A program made the position numbers and the translations under genes. Of a stretch of 64,000 nt of DNA, positions 6,584 to 30,377 are shown piece by piece. Numbering within the stretch: position 1 is the stretch's first letter; each line of letters starts with the position of its first letter. This DNA is from Streptomyces sp. JB150. Its GTDB lineage: Bacteria > Actinomycetota > Actinomycetes > Streptomycetales > Streptomycetaceae. The notes beneath the pieces are model-generated. The model did no database searches, was not told the DNA's origin, and saw only the letters and a program-made list of their open reading frames with translations. The DNA lies in assembly GCF_011193355.1 (NCBI RefSeq), contig NZ_CP049780.1:319586-383585 (forward strand). The letters run 5' to 3'.

Positions 6584-8550
6584 GTGCGCTCACCAACGCG
6601 CATACACACCGCCTCCGTTCGGCACGCGATCCTCGCCGTCGCGGCGGCGGGATCGGTGCTCGCGGCACCGCTCTCCCCCGCCCACGCGGCGACGCCGTCC
6701 CCGAGACCCGATCTGCGCGCGGACGTGAACCGCGACGGACGGGTCGACGTCACCGGCACCACCGACACGGCCGGCGAGGACACGTGGGCCGTCGGGCGGG
6801 GCGCGGTCCACCTGCCCAACCTGGACGACGACGCCAAGCGCTGCCCGGTGAAGGGCGCCGACGGCCGGCCGCTGTCCGACACCCAGCTGGCCGCGTGCAA
6901 CGACGCCGCCGACGGCAAGGTCAACGGCACGGCCGACGCCGCGGACCTCGCCCGGGTGCGCTCCGTCCCGATGCCCGGCCTGGCGGCGGACGCCGAGGGC
7001 AGCGTGCGGGTGACGACGGGCGCGAAGCGGACCCGCGTCTTCGTCAAGCGGTCCGGCGGGTGGACCCGGGTCACCTCGGACACCCGGCTGACCGCCGCCG
7101 AGCTGCGCGCCGGAGTGGAGTTCGGCGTGGAGGCCACCGATGTGATCCGGGACAGCGCCGTGTGGGACGGCCGCGCGGTGATCCGGCTGTCCGTGACCTC
7201 CGGCGCCGGACCGCCTCCGACTCCGTCACCCTGCGGGCCGCTCCCCTCCTCACCCACCACCACCTCCAGAACGCCCGGCAGGTGATGGTCACCAAGGTGA
7301 GCGGCGCGGGCGAGTACGGCCGTCTCCAGCGCCAGTTCGTCAAGGACCTGGAGAAGGAGGTCAAGGCCGCCGGCATCACCAAGCCGCTGGTCACGTTCGA
7401 GAAGTACGGCGACCCGTGGGCGCAGGACTTCGTGGAGCCGGCGTACGTCAGCATGACCGGCCCCGGCGGCAAGCGGCACGTGATGCGGGCGATGCTGCGC
7501 TCCGCCCAGCTGGGCCGCGAGGCGGGCCGGGAGCTGTTCGAGAAGGTGCGCGGCCGGGACGTGGGCGTCGTCCAGGTCACCGACCGCGCCGAGCCGGACG
7601 ACTGGTCGCTGAACTCCATGGGCAACCTGGAGACCATCCCGCCGTACGCGCACGGCGGCCGCTCCTTCCCGGCCGGGCGGATCATCATGGGCTGGCGCAA
7701 GGACAGCGATCAGCGGCCGTCGCCGGCGATGCGCACGCTGCTGAAGTCGCAGGGCCTGCAGGACCCGCTGCTGCTGGACACCTCCTGGCTGGGGGTCGGG
7801 CACGTCGACGAGTTCGTGCAGTTCCTGCCCGCCGGCACGCCGCGCGGCTGGCGGATCGGCGTGGCCGACCCGGAGGCCGGGCTGCGGCTGCTGCGCGACG
7901 CGCAGGCCGGCGGCCACGGTGGGGTGACGATGTTCTCCGTGCCCGGCCTCGGCGGCGACGTCCCGGCCCCGCAGGAGACCATCGACCAGGTCCTCGCCAC
8001 CCGGCACTTCATCGCCGACAACACCATGGCGGCCGAGCGCATCAAGGCGAACCTGGAGATCCTGAAGAAGGCGACCGGCGTCACCGACGCGGAGATCGTC
8101 CGCGTTCCGGCCCTGTACACCCGTGAGGCGCAGACGCGTGCGGCGGACGGCGGCGAGGTGCCGATGCCGCGGCTGACCCGGCTGGGCGGCGGCACGTCCC
8201 TCGCCGACACGTTCCAGGACCGCGGCCAGCAGAAGTGGCTCGCCGGAAACGACCGCGGCACCGGGAAGGCCGCCCGGGCGACGGTCATGACCAGCGCCTA
8301 CGTCCCCGGCGCGGTCAACGGTGTCCTCCTCGGCCGCGACCGCTACCTCGCCCCGCGCCAGTGGGGTCCGCTCGTCGGCGGCAAGGACGTCTTCACCGAG
8401 GCGGTGAACGCCGCGTACCGCAAGGCCGGTCTGAAGGTGTCGTACATCGACGACTGGTACACGTACCACCTCGGCATGGGCGAGGTGCACTGCGGCACCA
8501 ACACCCTGCGCGACGCCTCCGCGGCCTGGTGGGCGGCCCCGCGGCGGTAG
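6584..8550 (+). pseudogene. Secreted protein-arginine deiminase, interrupted by one frame break
   Basis: It would encode a bacterial peptidyl-arginine deiminase that converts arginine side chains to citrulline outside the cell. GTG at 6584 follows GAAGGGA. The protein starts with a signal peptide (about 35 residues, AHA cleavage) and continues in frame 2 to about 7209. The homologous reading then jumps to frame 1 (TASDSVTLRAAPLLTHHHLQ onward) until the stop at 8550. The break sits in a G/C run at 7202-7212 and looks like one missing base. The downstream half is intact and has all PAD catalytic motifs: WAQDF, GNLETIPP, the His/Asp of GHVDEF and the nucleophilic Cys of GEVHCGTN. Either a genuine frameshift mutation or a sequencing error could explain it. 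Expected full length is about 655 aa. Confidence 0.8.
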
Positions 8551-22822: not shown

Positions 22823-25630
22823 TCAGGGGGTGGCCAGCAGGGCTCCCAGTGCGTCGGCGGTGTGCGGGTGGCGGGCGAGGAGGGCCGCGCCGGCCGGGGT
22901 ACGGTCCGCCGGGGCCCAGTCGGCGTCGCAGCCGAGCAGGGCCGCCACCGCGTCGCAGGCCGCGGGGTGCGCGGCGAGCAGCGGCAGGCCGCGCACGGAC
23001 GAGCGGTCGCGGACCGGACGTGCGGGCGCCGGGGCCGGCTCGGCTCGCCACGGCGGTATCCAGGCGTCCAGGGCGGCGAGGCGGCCGGGGAAGACGCGGC
23101 CCGCCTCGCGGATCAGCAGGGGCGCGAGGTCCGCGCCGCCCGCGCGGAGGGTGGTGATGAGGGTCGGCAGCCAGGGCAGCAGCACCGGGTCGGGCAGCCG
23201 GGCGAACGCGTTCGACACGGCTTCGACGACGAAGTCGGCGAGGCCGGGCACCGGTTCCAGGGCGTGCAGGAATCCGCTGAGGTAGCGCGGATAGGCGGGC
23301 ACGACCAGGGGGTTGCCGAGCAGTTCGTCGCAGCGGGCCCGCAGGCCGGCCCGGGAGAGGGTGCCGAGCTGGGTCTTGGCCGCCCACAGCAGCGCCGTCT
23401 TCGCGGGGTCCTCCGGATGGGACTGGGCGACGGCCAGCTCCAGCTGGTTGCGGTCGCAGCCCAGCGACAGGGCGAGGCTCTCCATGCTGAACAGGAAGCC
23501 GAGCATGGCCGCGACCTGGCGGACGCTCGCCTCGTCGTCGGTGAACGCCGTCGGCAGCAGGGTGCAGTAGTGGGCGTAGCCGGTCTTGACGAAGGACTCG
23601 ATCCACGCGGGCAGGGACGGCTCGCTGGTGCGGTAGTACGCCAGCAGTCCGCGCACCCGGCGCAGCACCTCGGGCGCGCCGTCGACGGTCCGCTCGGTCG
23701 CCAGCACGTCGAGGGCGCGCCGGCCGAGTTCGTCGGCGAGGCGGCGGCTGCGCAGGTAGAGCGTGGCGTCCTCGACGGCTTCGAGGACGGTCGCCGTGGT
23801 CGCCTGCGGCCCGTACGCGGTGCGCCGCAGCCGCTGTTCGAGGACCTGCTCGATACTGACGCCCTCGTAGCCCAGCTCGATGAGGGCCCGCTGATGGGTG
23901 CCCAGGGCCAGGTCCCAGGACTCCTGGATGGGGCGCTCGCCGAGCTTGCGTTCGCCCATGATGGGGCGCGCCGCGCCGTGCGGCAGGAGGTAGCGCAGCA
24001 TCCACAGCACGTCGGAGCACTGTTCCAGCTCCGGCCGCGAGGCCATGTCGAGCAGGGCCCGCTGGACGCCGCGCTGCTGGAGCTTGAGGTCGAGCGGGGC
24101 GAGCCGGTCGTGGACGTCGCGGGCGAGGGGTGGCAGCGCGTCGTAGCCGACCTGGCCGACGCGGTCGCCGCCCAGCATGATCTCCACGAGGCGGCGCACG
24201 TCGCGCCGGCCGGGGACGGTGTCCTTCTCGACGCAGGTGACCGCCGCGTCCTGGAAGTCGTACGGCGTGGGCTTCGCGCGGTCCCGCATGCCCGCGAGGA
24301 GGATCGACGTCTCGAACACGGCGATGGCGTCGGCGGTGGAGGCGAGGTAGCCGTTGCGGCGGGCGGCGCGCACGATCTCCACGGACCAGCCGAGCAGTTC
24401 CTCCTCGTCGAGGCGGTCCAGGACGGGGGGCCGTTGCAGGAAGCCGGTGAGTCTGTCGGTGGGGGCGGCCGGGCCGGCGGGGACGGGAGCCGGCGCGGCC
24501 TTCGCCGTCTTCTTCGGCGTCCTGGTGCCCGCCTGGCCGGCGAGCCGGTACGGCTTGACCCGGGTGCGCTTGAGGTTCTTCGTCCACTGGGCGGCGGCGA
24601 TGGACACCGAGCCGGCGGCGAGCCCGAACTGTGCCTCGATGGCGGCGTGGCTGGACGGGATCAGGCCGTGCTGCCACTTGGTGGCGGTGGGCGGGCTGAT
24701 CTCGAAGGTGTCGGCGCCGTGGACGCCGAACTCGGCGACGCGGCTGGCGGCGTGGAAGGCGCCGCAGACGTAGAGGGCGTCCGCGGGGTCGGTGCCGGTG
24801 GCGGCCATGTGCCGGCGCATCCGCGTCCACATGTGGCGTTCGCGGTCCTCGTCGACGCGGACCCGGTGCGGGTCGCCGGGGGCGAGGCGCCGGAAGAGGC
24901 TGCCGATGAGCAGCATGACCTGCCGGTAGGTGTCGTGGTCGCTGTCGCCGAGGGGCAGTTCGACGTACTGGTGCCACCACTCCGACCAGTGCCGCACCTT
25001 GCCGTGGCGCAGCAGGTGCTCCTCCAGTTCGGCGAAGCGGGGGCGCAGGTCGCCGATCTCCACGCCGACCGCGTCGCCGTGCAGCGCGGCCTCCTCCTCG
25101 GCGGGCGGCGCGTCCGGGTCGGCCGGTGTGCCGGTGTCCTCCTTGGTCTCCTGCCGGGTCTCCTGCCACTGGAAGACGTGGTCGGAGGACCGGTCCACGA
25201 GGACGAGTTCGACGCCCGGCGTGTCCAGGGCGTAGGCGATGGCCTGGTACTCGGCCGACGCCTCGGTGATCGGGGCGACCACCGACAGCGGCGCCCATTC
25301 CGCGGGGAAGCCGTCGACCTCGGTCGCGAACGCCTGGACGGCGACCGGGAGCCTGCAGTTGCGCAGCTCGGTCAGGAGGGGGGCCATGTCCTCGCAGAGT
25401 TCGAGGTAGACCACCTTGGGCTGCTTCTCGCGCAGCCGGCGTGCCATGGCGAGGGCGGAGGCGGGCGAGTGATGGCAGACGGGGAAGATTTCCAGGGGTT
25501 CGCGCACCGCGCGGTCGACGTCGTCGACGATGCCGAGGAGGATGCCCTCCAGTGCGTCGGGTCCGCCGGCGAACGCGGTGGCGGCCTGCTGGAGCTGGGT
25601 GCGCAGGGCGGTGAAGGCGGACTCGTTCAT
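22823..25630 (-). CDS. DUF5682-type protein of a MoxR/vWA operon; N-terminus resembles TraB/TIKI-like hydrolases
   Basis: A 935-aa cytosolic protein, last in a five-gene operon, starting at ATG 25630, 29 nt after the MoxR stop. The N-terminal 300 residues carry the motif EIFPVCHHSP (45-55; His53, His54), KVVYLELCED (72-81; Glu77), DEDRERHMWTRM (260-271) and ALYVCGAFHA (285-294; His293). This is the order and spacing style of TraB/PrgY/TIKI/EreA-like proteins, in which His and Glu residues bind metal. The fold assignment is my inference. Residues about 370-405 are a Lys/Pro/Ala linker, and about 410-935 are predominantly helical repeats (LGWSVEIVRAARRNGYLAST, LEAVEDATLYLRSRRLADEL, FLFSMESLALSLGCDRNQLE). 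Proteins of this type are encoded beside MoxR and vWA genes in many bacteria. Their biochemical function is not established. Confidence 0.8.
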   Translation of the reverse strand: MNESAFTALRTQLQQAATAFAGGPDALEGILLGIVDDVDRAVREPLEIFPVCHHSPASALAMARRLREKQPKVVYLELCEDMAPLLTELRNCRLPVAVQAFATEVDGFPAEWAPLSVVAPITEASAEYQAIAYALDTPGVELVLVDRSSDHVFQWQETRQETKEDTGTPADPDAPPAEEEAALHGDAVGVEIGDLRPRFAELEEHLLRHGKVRHWSEWWHQYVELPLGDSDHDTYRQVMLLIGSLFRRLAPGDPHRVRVDEDRERHMWTRMRRHMAATGTDPADALYVCGAFHAASRVAEFGVHGADTFEISPPTATKWQHGLIPSSHAAIEAQFGLAAGSVSIAAAQWTKNLKRTRVKPYRLAGQAGTRTPKKTAKAAPAPVPAGPAAPTDRLTGFLQRPPVLDRLDEEELLGWSVEIVRAARRNGYLASTADAIAVFETSILLAGMRDRAKPTPYDFQDAAVTCVEKDTVPGRRDVRRLVEIMLGGDRVGQVGYDALPPLARDVHDRLAPLDLKLQQRGVQRALLDMASRPELEQCSDVLWMLRYLLPHGAARPIMGERKLGERPIQESWDLALGTHQRALIELGYEGVSIEQVLEQRLRRTAYGPQATTATVLEAVEDATLYLRSRRLADELGRRALDVLATERTVDGAPEVLRRVRGLLAYYRTSEPSLPAWIESFVKTGYAHYCTLLPTAFTDDEASVRQVAAMLGFLFSMESLALSLGCDRNQLELAVAQSHPEDPAKTALLWAAKTQLGTLSRAGLRARCDELLGNPLVVPAYPRYLSGFLHALEPVPGLADFVVEAVSNAFARLPDPVLLPWLPTLITTLRAGGADLAPLLIREAGRVFPGRLAALDAWIPPWRAEPAPAPARPVRDRSSVRGLPLLAAHPAACDAVAALLGCDADWAPADRTPAGAALLARHPHTADALGALLATP

Positions 25631-25659
25631 GGGCCTGTCCACGGTGTGGTTCCGGGTGC

Positions 25660-26772
25660 TCACGACAGGGTCGCGATGGCGTCGCGGCCGCCCTCGAGGA
25701 ACTCCGGCCAGGAGCCGCCCTCCTCCTTGCTGCGCGGCTCGACGACGCCGTGCAGGTACTTGTTGAGGATGGCCAGGTCCTCCGGTTCGCGGCGGGCGAG
25801 GGAGCCGACGAGCGAGGAGGCGAGGGTACGGGCGGTCAGGGCGCGCTCGCCGAAGAAGTTGCTGTGCAGGATGGCGTCCTCCAGGACGCCGATCTGCTCG
25901 GCGGTGGACAGCGCGGACTCCAGCTTCTCGTCGTCGCTCGCGGCCGCGGCGGCAGAGGCGCGCAGGTCGGAGAAGGACTGCAGCAGCACGTCCAGCAGGG
26001 TGGGTGGGACGTCGAGTTCGATCTGGTGGCGGCGCAGCAGTTCCTCGGTGCGGAAGCGGACGATCTCCGCCTCGCTCTTCTTGTTGGTCACGACGGGGAT
26101 GCGCACAAAGTTGAAGCGGCGCTTGAGCGCGGAGGACAGGTCGTTGACGCCCCGGTCGCGGCTGTTGGCGGTGGCGATGACGGAGAAGCCGGGCTTGGCG
26201 AACACGATGTTGTCGCTGTCGAGTTCGGGGACCGAGATGTACTTCTCGGAGAGGATGGAGATCAGCGCGTCCTGGACGTCGCTGGTGGAGCGGGTCAGTT
26301 CCTCGAAGCGGCCGATGACGCCGTTCTCCATCGCGGTCATGATCGGCGAGGGGATCATCGACTCCCGCGACTGGCCCTTGGCGATCACCATGGACACGTT
26401 CCACGAGTACTTGATGTGGTCCTCGGTGGTGCCGGCCGTGCCCTGCACGACGAGGGTGGAGTTGCGGCAGACGGCGGCGGCGAGCAGTTCGGCGAGCCAG
26501 CTCTTGCCGGTGCCGGGGTCGCCGATGAGCAGCAGGCCGCGGTCGGAGGCGAGGGTGACGATGGCCCGCTCGACGATGCTGCGGTCGCCGAACCACTTCT
26601 GGGAGACCTCGCGGTCGAGGCCGTCGGCCCGCTCGGACCCGAGGATGAACAGCCGGATCATCTTCGGCGACAGCCGCCAGGAGAACGGCTTGGGGTTGTC
26701 GTCGATCGACTCGAGCCAGTCCAGCTCCTCGGCGTACTTGATCTCGGCGGGGGCGCGCAGCAGGTCGGACAT
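25660..26772 (-). CDS. MoxR-family AAA+ ATPase
   Basis: A 370-aa chaperone-like ATPase. Walker A is GDPGTGKS (84-91). The Walker B position reads VIGRFEELTRS (153-163), where the usual Asp-Glu is Glu-Glu (157-158). Sensor 1 is IATANSRDRG (199-208) and the arginine-finger region is SALKRRFNF (214-222). ATG 26772 is at the conserved N-terminus. MoxR ATPases work with vWA partners to remodel or activate client proteins using ATP. Here the vWA gene lies 59 nt upstream and the DUF5682-type gene 29 nt downstream, so the three products probably form one machine. Confidence 0.92.
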   Translation of the reverse strand: MSDLLRAPAEIKYAEELDWLESIDDNPKPFSWRLSPKMIRLFILGSERADGLDREVSQKWFGDRSIVERAIVTLASDRGLLLIGDPGTGKSWLAELLAAAVCRNSTLVVQGTAGTTEDHIKYSWNVSMVIAKGQSRESMIPSPIMTAMENGVIGRFEELTRSTSDVQDALISILSEKYISVPELDSDNIVFAKPGFSVIATANSRDRGVNDLSSALKRRFNFVRIPVVTNKKSEAEIVRFRTEELLRRHQIELDVPPTLLDVLLQSFSDLRASAAAAASDDEKLESALSTAEQIGVLEDAILHSNFFGERALTARTLASSLVGSLARREPEDLAILNKYLHGVVEPRSKEEGGSWPEFLEGGRDAIATLS

Positions 26773-26831
26773 GGGTGAGGCCTTTCGGTGAGAGGAGAGG
26801 TGAGAGGTGGGTGTGCTGAGGCGCGGACGGC

Positions 26832-28256
26832 TCAGGTGAGGAACGACTTCAGCTCGTGGACGAGCTTGCGGATGTGACCGGAGATCACGGGCGTGCCGAG
26901 GTCCTTGAAACGTTCCCTGAACCAGGGGTTGACGCTGCCGCGGCCGGCGCTGGTCACCGAGCCGACGGGGATGAACTTCGCGCCGGAGCGGTGGATGGCC
27001 GCCATGCTCTCGAACAGCGGCTCGGAGCGCCATTCGTAGAAGTCGGAGATCCACACCACGACCGTGTTGCGCGGTTCGGCGATCTTCGGCTGGGCCAGGG
27101 CCATGGCGACCGTGCCGTCGGTGCCGCCGCCGAGCTTGGTGCGCAGCAGGGTCTCGAAGGGGTCGTTCACCCAGGGGGTGAGGTCGAGCGCCTGGGTGTC
27201 GTAGGCGATCAGGTGGACGTCGACCTTGGGCAGGCCGGCGAAGATCGACGCCAGGATGGTGCAGTTGACCATCGAGTCGACCATCGAGCCGGACTGGTCG
27301 ACGACGACGATGAGCCGCTGCGGCGTCGTCTTGCGGACGGTGTGCCGGTAGTAGAGGCGGTCGACGTAGAGCCGTTCCTCCTCGGGGTCCCAGTTGGTGA
27401 GGTTCTTCCAGATGGTGCGGTCGAGGTCCAGGTTGCGGAAGACCCGCTTGGGCGGGATCGACCGGTCGAGGGTGCCGACGGAGGCCTTCTCGACCTGGGT
27501 GCGCAGGACTTCGGCGACCTCGTCGACGAAGCGGCGGATGAGCGCCTTGGCGTTGGCGAGGGCGACGCCGGAGAGGTTGTTCTTGTCGCGCAGCAGCTGC
27601 TCGATGAGCGACATGCTCGGGGTGAGCTGTGCGGCGAGCTGGGGGTCGGCGAGGACTTCCCGCAGGTGCATGCGCTTGACCAGGTCGGCCTCGATGGCGC
27701 CGAGTTCGGGGCCGATCTCCGGGATGAGCGTGCCGAGGTCGGGGGTGGGGTGGCCGATTCCCGTGCCGGTGGGGCTCACTCCCCCGCCGGCCGCGCGGCC
27801 GGCGCCGCCGCGGCCGCGTCCGCCGCGCAGGTCGCCGGGCTTGCAGCCGAGGGCGCGTTCCAGCCAGCCGGCGTCGGACTGCCATTGGGCGAGCTGCCCG
27901 GCGGTGACGGTGCCGGAGCCGGGGGCGAAGACGCCCAGCAGCACCTTGGACACGAGCGCGGCGCGGCGCACCTCGGCGGCCCGGTCGCGGTCGTCCCCGT
28001 CGGGCTCGGGCACCATCAGGTTCTCGAACTCGCCGGCGAGTTCGGGGTGGCGCTGGACGATGGAGTCGACGGAGGCCTGCGGGTCGAGCAGGGCGGGCGG
28101 CAGGCCGATGTCCTCGACGACGGCGAGCGAGGCGGCCTCCAGACCGGCCTGCTCCTCGGGGTCGAAGAGGCGGGCGAGCAGCCGCCAGTACAGCAGCTGC
28201 CGGCGGTTCTCGTCGGGGTTCGCCGGCACGGTCTCCCCGGTGGTGTGGTCGGTCAT
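26832..28256 (-). CDS. vWA-domain partner of the MoxR ATPase
   Basis: A 474-aa protein. Residues 1-135 are helical, residues about 143-170 are a Gly/Arg-rich linker (GDLRGGRGRGGAGRAAGGG), and residues about 175-305 are a second helical region with KRMHLREVLADPQLAAQL. Residues about 312-474 form a vWA domain with a complete metal-dependent adhesion site: DQSGS (320-324), Thr379 in GGGTDGT and Asp405 in WISDFYEW. ATG 28256 overlaps the stop of the upstream gene by 4 nt (ATGA), so translation is coupled. It should act as the client- or effector-binding adaptor for the MoxR ATPase. Confidence 0.92.
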   Translation of the reverse strand: MTDHTTGETVPANPDENRRQLLYWRLLARLFDPEEQAGLEAASLAVVEDIGLPPALLDPQASVDSIVQRHPELAGEFENLMVPEPDGDDRDRAAEVRRAALVSKVLLGVFAPGSGTVTAGQLAQWQSDAGWLERALGCKPGDLRGGRGRGGAGRAAGGGVSPTGTGIGHPTPDLGTLIPEIGPELGAIEADLVKRMHLREVLADPQLAAQLTPSMSLIEQLLRDKNNLSGVALANAKALIRRFVDEVAEVLRTQVEKASVGTLDRSIPPKRVFRNLDLDRTIWKNLTNWDPEEERLYVDRLYYRHTVRKTTPQRLIVVVDQSGSMVDSMVNCTILASIFAGLPKVDVHLIAYDTQALDLTPWVNDPFETLLRTKLGGGTDGTVAMALAQPKIAEPRNTVVVWISDFYEWRSEPLFESMAAIHRSGAKFIPVGSVTSAGRGSVNPWFRERFKDLGTPVISGHIRKLVHELKSFLT

Positions 28257-29647
28257 TTCCTGAGCAGCCTTCCGGCGCGTTCGCGCAGCACGGCCACCGC
28301 GTCGGTGGCGGCCTTCTCGAGCTTGGCCCCGGCCTTGTCGGTGGTGCCGCCGGCCCAGGCGCCCGCGTGGACGGCGACCGTCTTCCTGCGCACGGTGGTC
28401 TCCACGGCGAGCGGCTGGACGGCGAAGCGTCCGGCGTCCCAGCGCAGCAGTCCGATGCAGGCGGTGGACGCGGCGACGGCCTTCGGGGTGAGCGGTCCGG
28501 CGACCGGTACGCGGTCGGTGTCGACGGCCAGCCGGTGCCCGGTGAGGGTGAACGTCACCGTCTCGTCGTCCGCGTCCTGTTCGGCGGTGTACCCCTCGAG
28601 GAACACGGGGTGGGCGAGGCGCACCGGGTGCCGGTCGAGGGGCGCGGTCGGCGGTGTGGTGGCGGTGGGCAGGGCGACGCGGGCGGTGGCGAAGGGGTCG
28701 GCGGGCTCGCCGGCGCGGGCGTGCTCGTCGCTCCAGATCAGGTCGCCCTCGGCGGTGACGGGCATGTCGGTGAGGTCCATCGAGCGGCCCTCGCCGAGGG
28801 CGGCGAGCAGCGCCATGTGCGGGCGCAGCAGCTGCCAGACCCCCGCGCCGAGGACGGTGTCGGGCTTCGGCGCGGACACGCTCGCCCGCACCAGGCGGGG
28901 TGGACCGCCGTCGGCGGGTTCGAGGACGGCGTGCACCTGGGCCTGGGCGGCGGTGGCGTGTTCCTGGAGGTCGACGCCGAGCGGCAGCAGCCGGCCGGTG
29001 GCGGTGCCCGTGGCGAGCGCGGCGGCGGCGCCGGGCAGGGTCAGCAGCATGCCGCGGGCCCACAGGTCGGCCCAGCGGCGCACGGGTATCCGCTCCAGGG
29101 AGGCGCCCGGGCAGGACGCGGCGAGTTCGGCGGCGAATCCGTCGAGGAGGGTGGCGAGGCGGCGCAGTTCCGGACCCGGCAGCAGCGCGGAGACCACCTG
29201 GGCGGAGCCGGCGACCACATCGTGGTCGATGCCCTGCCAGCCGGCGCGCGCGAGGTCGCCGAGCCAGGAGCGGGCGGCGGCGAGGAGGTTGGGCGCCTGC
29301 TGTCCGGCGGCGGCCGCGGCGGGCGTCTCCTCACGGGGGCGGCCGGTGGCCTCGTCCGCGCGGGCGGCGAGCGCGTCGTGGACGGAGCCGAGCAGGGCGG
29401 TGCGGGCGGCGGCGAGGCTGAGGAAGTGGTCCTCGCTCGCGGCGCCGGCCGCGGCCTTCTCGGCGGCCTCGGCCGCGCGGGCGGCGAGCGGGCTGCCGGC
29501 GACCGCGTCGGCCAGCCGCGCCAGGCCCTCGGCCTGGGCGGGCTGGGGCCTCAGCAGACCGCCGATCAGCACCTGGTCGAAGGCGTCGACGGCGGCCAGG
29601 GCCTCGTCCAGTCCCTCGACGGGTTCGGTGAGCAGATCGAGCCGCAT
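28253..29647 (-). CDS. Unrecognised 464-aa protein of the MoxR/vWA operon
   Basis: I do not recognise a domain. The first 190 residues are almost entirely Ala-rich helix (LARLADAVAGSPLAARAAEA, LLAAARSWLGDLARAGWQG). The rest looks beta-rich with several short conserved-looking phrases: RIPVRRWADLWARGMLLTLP, GRLLPLGVDLQEHATAAQAQ, RPHMALLAALGEGRSM and HPVRLAHPVFLEGYTAEQ. There is no signal peptide, membrane segment or obvious catalytic motif. It overlaps the vWA gene by 4 nt and starts 1 nt inside the stop of the SWIM-like gene, so it is an integral component. It may be a scaffold or sensor. Confidence 0.8.
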   Translation of the reverse strand: MRLDLLTEPVEGLDEALAAVDAFDQVLIGGLLRPQPAQAEGLARLADAVAGSPLAARAAEAAEKAAAGAASEDHFLSLAAARTALLGSVHDALAARADEATGRPREETPAAAAAGQQAPNLLAAARSWLGDLARAGWQGIDHDVVAGSAQVVSALLPGPELRRLATLLDGFAAELAASCPGASLERIPVRRWADLWARGMLLTLPGAAAALATGTATGRLLPLGVDLQEHATAAQAQVHAVLEPADGGPPRLVRASVSAPKPDTVLGAGVWQLLRPHMALLAALGEGRSMDLTDMPVTAEGDLIWSDEHARAGEPADPFATARVALPTATTPPTAPLDRHPVRLAHPVFLEGYTAEQDADDETVTFTLTGHRLAVDTDRVPVAGPLTPKAVAASTACIGLLRWDAGRFAVQPLAVETTVRRKTVAVHAGAWAGGTTDKAGAKLEKAATDAVAVLRERAGRLLRK

Positions 29648-30150
29648 CAGGCCACCGCCCTCGTCGGCGGGAACCACTGCATCTCGGGCAGCGGCGCGGT
29701 GGCCGGGGCCAGTTCGAGGTAGGCGAGGTGGCGCAGGAACCGGCTGAAGACCGACGCGGCGGCCTTGCCGTCCGCGGGCAGCGGGCGGGTCGCGCTCATG
29801 ACCAGGTGGAGGGTGTGGGCGGTGGCCTCCCCGTCCCCGAGGTCGGTGCGCAGATAGCGGGCGACGCGCTCGGCGCCGTACTGGAGCACCGCTTCGTTGA
29901 TCAGCGCGCCGATGTGGTTGCAGAAGCCGCCGCGGGCGCCGCCGAACGGCCGGTTGTTGTTGGTGCTGCACGCGTAGGCGTACGTCCCGGCGGTGACCGA
30001 CGAGACGTAGACCCGCCCGATGTCGGAGCCGCTGGAGACGACGCCCTGGAGGCGCCCGTCGGCCAGCTCCGCGAACGGGACCTTGGCGAGCTTGCGCGGC
30101 CGTGCGGGCGGGATCACCCGCGCCGTGCTCGACCTCTCGAAGTGCGACAA
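29647..30150 (-). CDS. SWIM-like small protein heading the MoxR/vWA operon
   Basis: A 167-aa protein. I chose TTG 30150 because AAAGGAG lies eight bases upstream; longer in-frame starts would run through that site. The core reads VYVSSVTAGTYAYACSTNNN followed by GGFCNHIGALINEAVLQYG. Cys61, Cys77 and His79 fit a SWIM zinc finger (CxC...CxH) in which one Cys of the first pair is a Thr. SWIM modules bind DNA or proteins. The C-terminal half is helical. It is the first gene of the operon, facing a 227-bp promoter gap shared with a divergent MazG-like gene. It could recognise a trigger or target. Confidence 0.7.
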   Translation of the reverse strand: MSHFERSSTARVIPPARPRKLAKVPFAELADGRLQGVVSSGSDIGRVYVSSVTAGTYAYACSTNNNRPFGGARGGFCNHIGALINEAVLQYGAERVARYLRTDLGDGEATAHTLHLVMSATRPLPADGKAAASVFSRFLRHLAYLELAPATAPLPEMQWFPPTRAVA

Positions 30151-30377
30151 CGCACCATCTCCTTTGCAGCACAAGGGAAGTCCGACGCCGGATCGGCGGG
30201 ACGGGAAAGAACCTACTGGCGACCACTGACAACGCCCCGGCGACGCCGGGCCGCCGCCCCTTCCGCGCTCCCTCGCGCCGCGGGGAAATGGCCGGTTGAG
30301 CCCGTCTCCGCACGCGGCCCGCGATCGTTCACGAGTCGAGGAGGCGGGGCGAGGGACGCCCGCCGGAAGGGGTGTCC

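Follow-up and report, generated by a model that had tools for sequence, protein, structure and literature searches.

One known relative set for the operon described here is yehLMPQ of Escherichia coli, whose genes run in one direction and encode a MoxR ATPase, a DUF5682 protein, a von Willebrand factor A (vWA) protein of the VWA_CoxE family and a SWIM protein. The literature that we searched gave no function for YehL-type MoxR gene sets, no paper on the five-gene set and no mention of DUF5682 or DUF5691. RavA-ViaA is likewise a MoxR-vWA pair and a proposed chaperone, for which we know of no SWIM, adaptor or DUF5682 partner. Two papers describe it, unlike our operon, with respiratory complexes (PMC3893208, PMC10585395), and a third describes ternary conflict systems in which MoxR and a vWA partner occupy an accessory, roaming operon, as they do here (PMC7159879). 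The operon in question lies in a 64,000-nucleotide stretch of Streptomyces sp. JB150 (contig NZ_CP049780.1, positions 319,586 to 383,585), which in its entirety is called the window below and belongs to a genome of 7.32 Mb in a single contig. We consider it probable that its five genes encode a protein-remodeling machine induced by DNA damage, which would make the operon a third, diverged lineage of the YehL type. The gene set, its conservation and homologies, the promoter box with the genes that share it, and the predicted folds were all established by computation.

The operon is encoded by the minus strand, starts at 30150 and ends at 22823, with its five genes in the order SWIM-like, 464-aa, vWA, MoxR and DUF5682. 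The first encodes a small, basic SWIM-like protein (29647..30150; 167 amino acids [aa]; isoelectric point, 9.7) that begins with TTG behind the ribosome-binding site AAAGGAG (30159..30165); GGAGATG was found in 62 of 79 operon upstream regions. It is followed by a 464-aa putative adaptor (28253..29647), a vWA protein with the metal-site motif DQSGSM (26832..28256), a MoxR AAA+ ATPase matched by PF07728 (AAA_5) with GDPGTGKS as its Walker A motif (25660..26772), and a divergent DUF5682 protein. Reading of the open reading frames (ORFs) bore out what an earlier, sequence-only reading of this DNA had described: a same-direction operon with overlaps of 1 and 4 nucleotides (nt) followed by gaps of 59 and 29 nt. 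Two of its details shifted. The DUF5682 gene, taken there to encode 935 aa from ATG 25630, probably starts at GTG 25663 and encodes 946 aa (22823..25663), since the resulting 4-nt overlap with the MoxR gene recurs in 54/80 relatives and 22/24 divergent loci; we keep the name 935-aa protein for the search results below. The span assigned to the operon, 22823..30150, contains all five genes but stops short of a conserved promoter box (30210-30232).

When genome contigs were scanned with an alignment of five rows of the 935-aa protein, at least 557 relatives were confirmed, the best 80 of which were used, so that close relatives dominate the 80-locus counts. A further 24 divergent loci comprised 4 from a phylum sample and 20 chosen by hand among 85 matching genomes of families f8 (presumably Pseudonocardiaceae) and f5. 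Genes at these loci were called with custom scripts, on which the overlap and fusion counts depend. All five genes occurred in the same order and on the same strand in 78/80 loci, the remaining two being cut by contig ends, and the set was complete in 24/24 divergent loci. The five-part set read from one locus thus held across neighborhoods, and its arrangement is not due to chance. The SWIM-like and 464-aa genes were fused into one ORF in 22/78 relatives and overlapped by 1 nt in 55/78, and the 464-aa and vWA genes overlapped by 4 nt in 62 loci. Across the divergent loci, the 464-aa protein was 46-78% and MoxR 82-95% identical to the window copy. The Walker A and DQSGSM motifs were each kept in 104/104 sequences, as was each of the DUF5682 motifs CHHSP, Y-[LIV]-E-[LM]-C and CG-[AS]-x-H. 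The best protein matches include one of 98% identity from Streptomyces sp. NPDC052687, and orthologues were also seen in S. glaucescens.

Profile comparisons tied the operon to the YehL-type sets. Aligned with E. coli YehL by hhalign, the window MoxR proved homologous over its length, at 100% probability (E 3e-50, 348 columns). The vWA protein, matched by PF05762 (VWA_CoxE) at E 3.6e-29, aligned with YehP at E 1e-31, and the 935-aa protein matched YehM weakly (70% probability, E 4e-5). The sequence-only reading had named no known relative set; yehLMPQ is one, with homologous MoxR, vWA and DUF5682 proteins. It differs in gene order, and in the window the SWIM protein is small and is accompanied by a separate adaptor of the OB type, without detectable similarity to YehQ. 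PafBC-type control is not known from E. coli.

Two sibling systems of the classical type lie elsewhere on the chromosome. In system A (about 4.60-4.61 Mb), one strand carries a DUF5691 gene and another gene whose product has a CxC-type SWIM motif, and the opposite strand carries MoxR, DUF5682 and VWA genes. System B (about 7.23-7.24 Mb) has a large ORF, MoxR, a DUF5682-VWA fusion and a 605-aa CxC-motif protein. Since PF04434 found no match at either locus, the label SWIM there denotes the CxC pattern alone. The fusion in system B, a single ORF joining a classical DUF5682 to a C-terminal VWA_CoxE domain (L010:7125-11105, minus strand), suggests that DUF5682 and VWA act together. Both systems resemble the window operon in their classes of parts and in their promoter box; they differ from it in having a classical DUF5682 matched by PF18934, CxC-type SWIM motifs, another arrangement and, in system A, DUF5691. 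The classical DUF5682 rows were only 22-26% identical to the window DUF5682. R-[FV]-E-E stood at the Walker B position of the window, system-B and YehL MoxR proteins, and the system-A motif was not located by our script. The best reading of these homologies is that the window operon represents a third, divergent lineage of YehL-type MoxR/vWA/SWIM/DUF5682 systems.

Upstream of the operon, pattern matching and conservation identified a RecA-NDp/PafBC-type promoter box, TTGTCAGTG-N8-TAGGTT (30210..30232, minus strand), which ends 59 nt 5' of the SWIM start codon. We take TTGTCRGTG-N8-TANNNT to be the RecA-NDp consensus, reportedly that of Gamulin 2004. It matched the window at this one site, which stayed the sole match with one mismatch allowed, and found nothing in 100 shuffles. 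The box was exact in 68/78 relatives and within one mismatch in 76/78, mostly 55-64 nt 5' of the start codon; shuffled upstreams of the relatives never came nearer to it than 3 mismatches. Word counts in 79 operon upstreams found CGTTGTCAGTG in 55, whereas no 11-mer of the shuffled regions exceeded 4. Control by LexA was rejected: GAAC-N4-GTTC, taken as its pattern, occurred in 0/79 upstreams.

Genome-wide, the box pattern had 31 matches and the reversed pattern had none. A downstream ORF was sought for 30 of the matches and a Pfam scan was made for 20; two of the 30 ORFs have scores no higher than zero, and the starts of two are clearly internal. Fourteen of the 30 begin 6-10 nt after the box, as expected of leaderless transcripts. 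By their Pfam families, 13 of the 20 scanned ORFs encode helicases or proteins of repair or replication: UDG, MgsA/RarA, RuvC, UvrB, DnaG, a DNA polymerase III subunit, a RadA-like KaiC-type ATPase, UvrD, RecA, an exonuclease III-type protein, an O6-methylguanine methyltransferase and two DEAD helicases. The other seven were ribosomal protein S6, PhoH, a SUKH-4 protein, a sigma-70-type factor that has a SnoaL domain, and three that no Pfam family matched. Among the boxes of the last five of these, one (L178) lies about 9 kb before the window. The genome encodes a PafC homologue (PF19187, E 1.2e-27, at 1382065-1382418), by a model that is unspecific, matching in 5/14 control genomes and exceeding the cut-off in 3.

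Boxes of the sibling systems were checked in 14 of 16 high-scoring system-A loci and in 6 system-B loci. System A had a box within one mismatch beside the operon in 13/14 loci (9 exact), and in 10/14 two divergent boxes lay between the operon arms (positions 6772-6866 of locus L009 in the window genome). System B had a co-directional upstream box in 4/6 loci (3 exact), one of the two misses being cut by a contig end. The system-B box of the window genome is followed by two additional ORFs that run towards MoxR and would belong to one transcript. Its own promoter class and the promoters of its siblings thus tie the window operon to the DNA-damage response.

A promoter box common to DNA-repair genes suggests that the five-gene machine helps cells cope with damaged DNA, and three diverged systems of one genome behind recA's box give a first testable direction on damage, client and chemistry. 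The box set also adds genomic evidence that Streptomyces has a PafBC-type response, a point left open in 2022 by work on S. venezuelae (PMC9380542). There, an initial search suggested that the M. smegmatis motif was not conserved; despite that result, a RecA-NDp/PafBC-type promoter set is visible in the present Streptomyces genome.

Several observations weigh against the promoter reading. Among 55 unique upstreams of the two distant families f5 and f8, the box was exact in 6 and present in relaxed form in 24 (shuffles, mean 0.16). The counts for f8 were 1/47 exact and 16/47 relaxed, and those for f5 were 5/8 and 8/8. Exact boxes per genome numbered 0-7 in five f8 genomes, 12 and 11 in two f5 genomes, and 28 and 21 in two more genomes of the window's genus; since f8 genomes hold so few, the box consensus itself may have drifted in that family. 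In addition, one report describes a mutant of a RecA-NDp gene without significant damage sensitivity (PMC5087735).

Two of the family labels given in the sequence-only reading stood in part. The label DUF5682-type was upheld by profile-profile comparison, in which the window protein matched a three-sequence DUF5682 profile at 98.8% probability (E 5e-17, 27% identity, 471 columns), and not by hmmscan, where PF18934 gave no match at E≤1; sequence models miss the gene. Several close orthologues are labelled DUF5682 in public databases, some with a precomputed PF18934 match. In the predicted model, the N-terminal domain is alpha/beta, with strands alternating with helices, and the C-terminal half consists of helical repeats. 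Across the alignment, E, R and H do not vary in any of 36 rows, nor does HH in the 28 rows that extend to it; their order resembles that described for TIKI enzymes (PMC6254334). The predicted strand-helix order would be compatible with the TIKI/EreA/ChaN superfamily, which has a core of parallel strands and a 2His/2Glu active site; the Pfam families TIKI, Ere and ChaN were unmatched at E≤1, and fold searches listed the helical repeats, which dominate, and hardly sampled the alpha/beta domain.

The SWIM motif has the form CxCx(n)CxH. What stood of the label SWIM-like was a conserved variant that differs from this form, C-x7-C-x7-C-x-H in 78/78 loci and C-x7-C-x(6-9)-C-x-H in 24/24 divergent loci. 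Against the label, hmmscan found no PF04434 match, and the window copy has Phe at the second Cys of this zinc-finger variant. That Cys was kept in 120/120 of the SWIM-like homologues listed and in 78/78 loci, and also in a relative 98% identical to the window protein; because the position is otherwise invariant, the window copy may be weakened, or a base may have been misread. UniRef calls some orthologues SWIM-type. The 464-aa protein is helical in its N-terminal half and is predicted to end in two tandem OB-like folds, which are acidic and might therefore bind protein if they do not bind DNA. It was rejected as a DUF5691 protein (0.2% profile probability against that of system A) and as a YehQ (0.1%), and in profile comparison neither it nor the SWIM-like protein matched either family. 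The SWIM-like, 464-aa and 935-aa proteins had no Pfam match over the cut-off in hmmscan, and an NCBIfam scan returned nothing specific for the five proteins. None of the queries put to a PDB sequence search (MoxR, vWA, and the alignments of DUF5682 and of SWIM with adaptor) had a usable match, and Foldseek gave none under E 0.001 for either predicted model.

Taken together, the parts suggest a MoxR-vWA remodeling machine whose adaptors are directed to DNA or nucleoprotein and which may include a hydrolase, and from them we infer the steps of induction, complex formation, DNA recognition, remodeling and hydrolysis, and the nature of the substrate. DNA damage would expose single-stranded DNA and thereby activate PafBC, which with the housekeeping RNA polymerase would start transcription from the RecA-NDp-type promoter (30210-30232). 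The five genes, coupled in translation, would then yield one complex. Within it, a target, probably DNA or nucleoprotein, would be recognized by the SWIM protein together with the tandem-OB adaptor, the two being in some cases a single polypeptide. The vWA protein would dock the target or the adaptor on the MoxR ring, and the ring would spend ATP to remodel or extract a protein. DUF5682, with its putative helical-repeat scaffold and its alpha/beta domain carrying invariant His, Glu, Arg and His, might cleave or process what is extracted.

The alternative that survives best, which we still judge unlikely, is an anti-phage or conflict system, in which the DNA-damage promoter would serve as an infection alarm through PafBC and the five proteins would attack the phage or kill the cell. 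It draws on the patchy distribution of the operon, a real and cohesive unit that is accessory. Of 296 actinobacterial genomes sampled evenly, the same five had both the 935-aa and the 464-aa protein, and the searches with them gave weak partial matches elsewhere too. Both were present in 3/9 same-genus genomes listed, the window genome included, and the 464-aa gene was found in 77/150 genomes of family f8 and 8/251 of f5. Immediate neighbors formed 62 clusters among 78 upstream genes and 69 among 78 downstream genes; with so many clusters no sixth gene travels with the operon, and because flanking genes seldom recur it is a self-contained roaming cassette. Among the matches listed, 935-aa copies from Saccharopolyspora, Streptoalloteichus and Sphaerisporangium were 85% identical to that of the window, as near as many Streptomyces copies, and the operon may therefore have spread horizontally. 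The named hosts are mostly Streptomyces, plus mycelial genera. Five PLSDB records, 0.93 to 11.9 Mb long and some as large as a chromosome, encode a relative of the 935-aa protein, and MoxR-vWA pairs are known in proposed conflict systems (PMC7159879).

Searches aimed at defense spoke against this alternative. PADLOC-DB 2.0.0 gave weak matches to TerY, mad8 and generic AAA-type models and none to system-specific ones. Immediate neighbors were no richer in defense families than distant genes (110 near genes matched 6 families and 110 far genes 31; raw counts without formal statistics on length-filtered sets of 110/156 near and 110/266 far genes). No relative of the 935-aa protein was found in phage records, and two peptide patterns found none among IMG/VR viral contigs. 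A plain anti-phage system was rejected on these grounds. Pfam holds VMAP models, and a VMAP-type ternary system was rejected as well: among the five proteins no VMAP, iSTAND or beta-propeller family matched at E≤1 except bpMoxR, which the window MoxR matches below the cut-off. Nor did the operon show the variable effectors of ternary systems, whose displacement marks conflict systems according to PMC7159879; the same five genes recurred at the intact loci, and the high identity of MoxR across the divergent loci likewise speaks against conflict. The earlier suggestion of an inducible defense or cell-damage response therefore divides. Its cell-damage half is carried by the box common to recA, ruvC, uvrB and both sibling systems, whereas its defense half finds no PADLOC fit, neighbor enrichment or viral relatives, and a fixed composition. 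A defense role is possible, because a damage promoter can answer infection, though nothing found favors it.

A more specific proposal extends to the whole SWIM/MoxR/vWA/DUF5682 class, E. coli yehLMPQ included, and seems to us rather unlikely as stated: MoxR would be an extractor that strips proteins off damaged or single-stranded DNA and feeds them to a DUF5682 hydrolase, with the SWIM and OB modules doing the targeting. By analogy, the class would be a novel type of DNA-damage machine, a bacterial counterpart of p97-SPRTN, the eukaryotic route for DNA-protein crosslinks.

Distinctly unlikely is a maturation chaperone like RavA-ViaA or CoxD, with MoxR and vWA loading or activating a single enzyme complex of the host, assisted by the remaining proteins as accessories. 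Characterized MoxR proteins are said to act so (PMC3893208), and the vWA domain is CoxE-like, but no client gene accompanies the operon and its promoter class is that of DNA repair. Least credible is a TIKI/EreA-type hydrolase of a small molecule or toxic adduct of genotoxic stress, with DUF5682 as the key component that MoxR and vWA merely switch on: the invariant HH, E, R and H and the alternating strands and helices described above fit it, whereas the unmatched TIKI, Ere and ChaN families and the fold searches, which barely sampled the N-terminal domain, lend it no support.

Rfam and tRNA scans of the 64-kb window were empty. Upstream of the operon in four related loci we noted a homologous protein with an N-terminal HTH, encoded by the first gene in L100, L107 and L109 and by the third in L075. 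By its position, this protein is likely the PADLOC type I methyltransferase match seen among the near genes (3/110).

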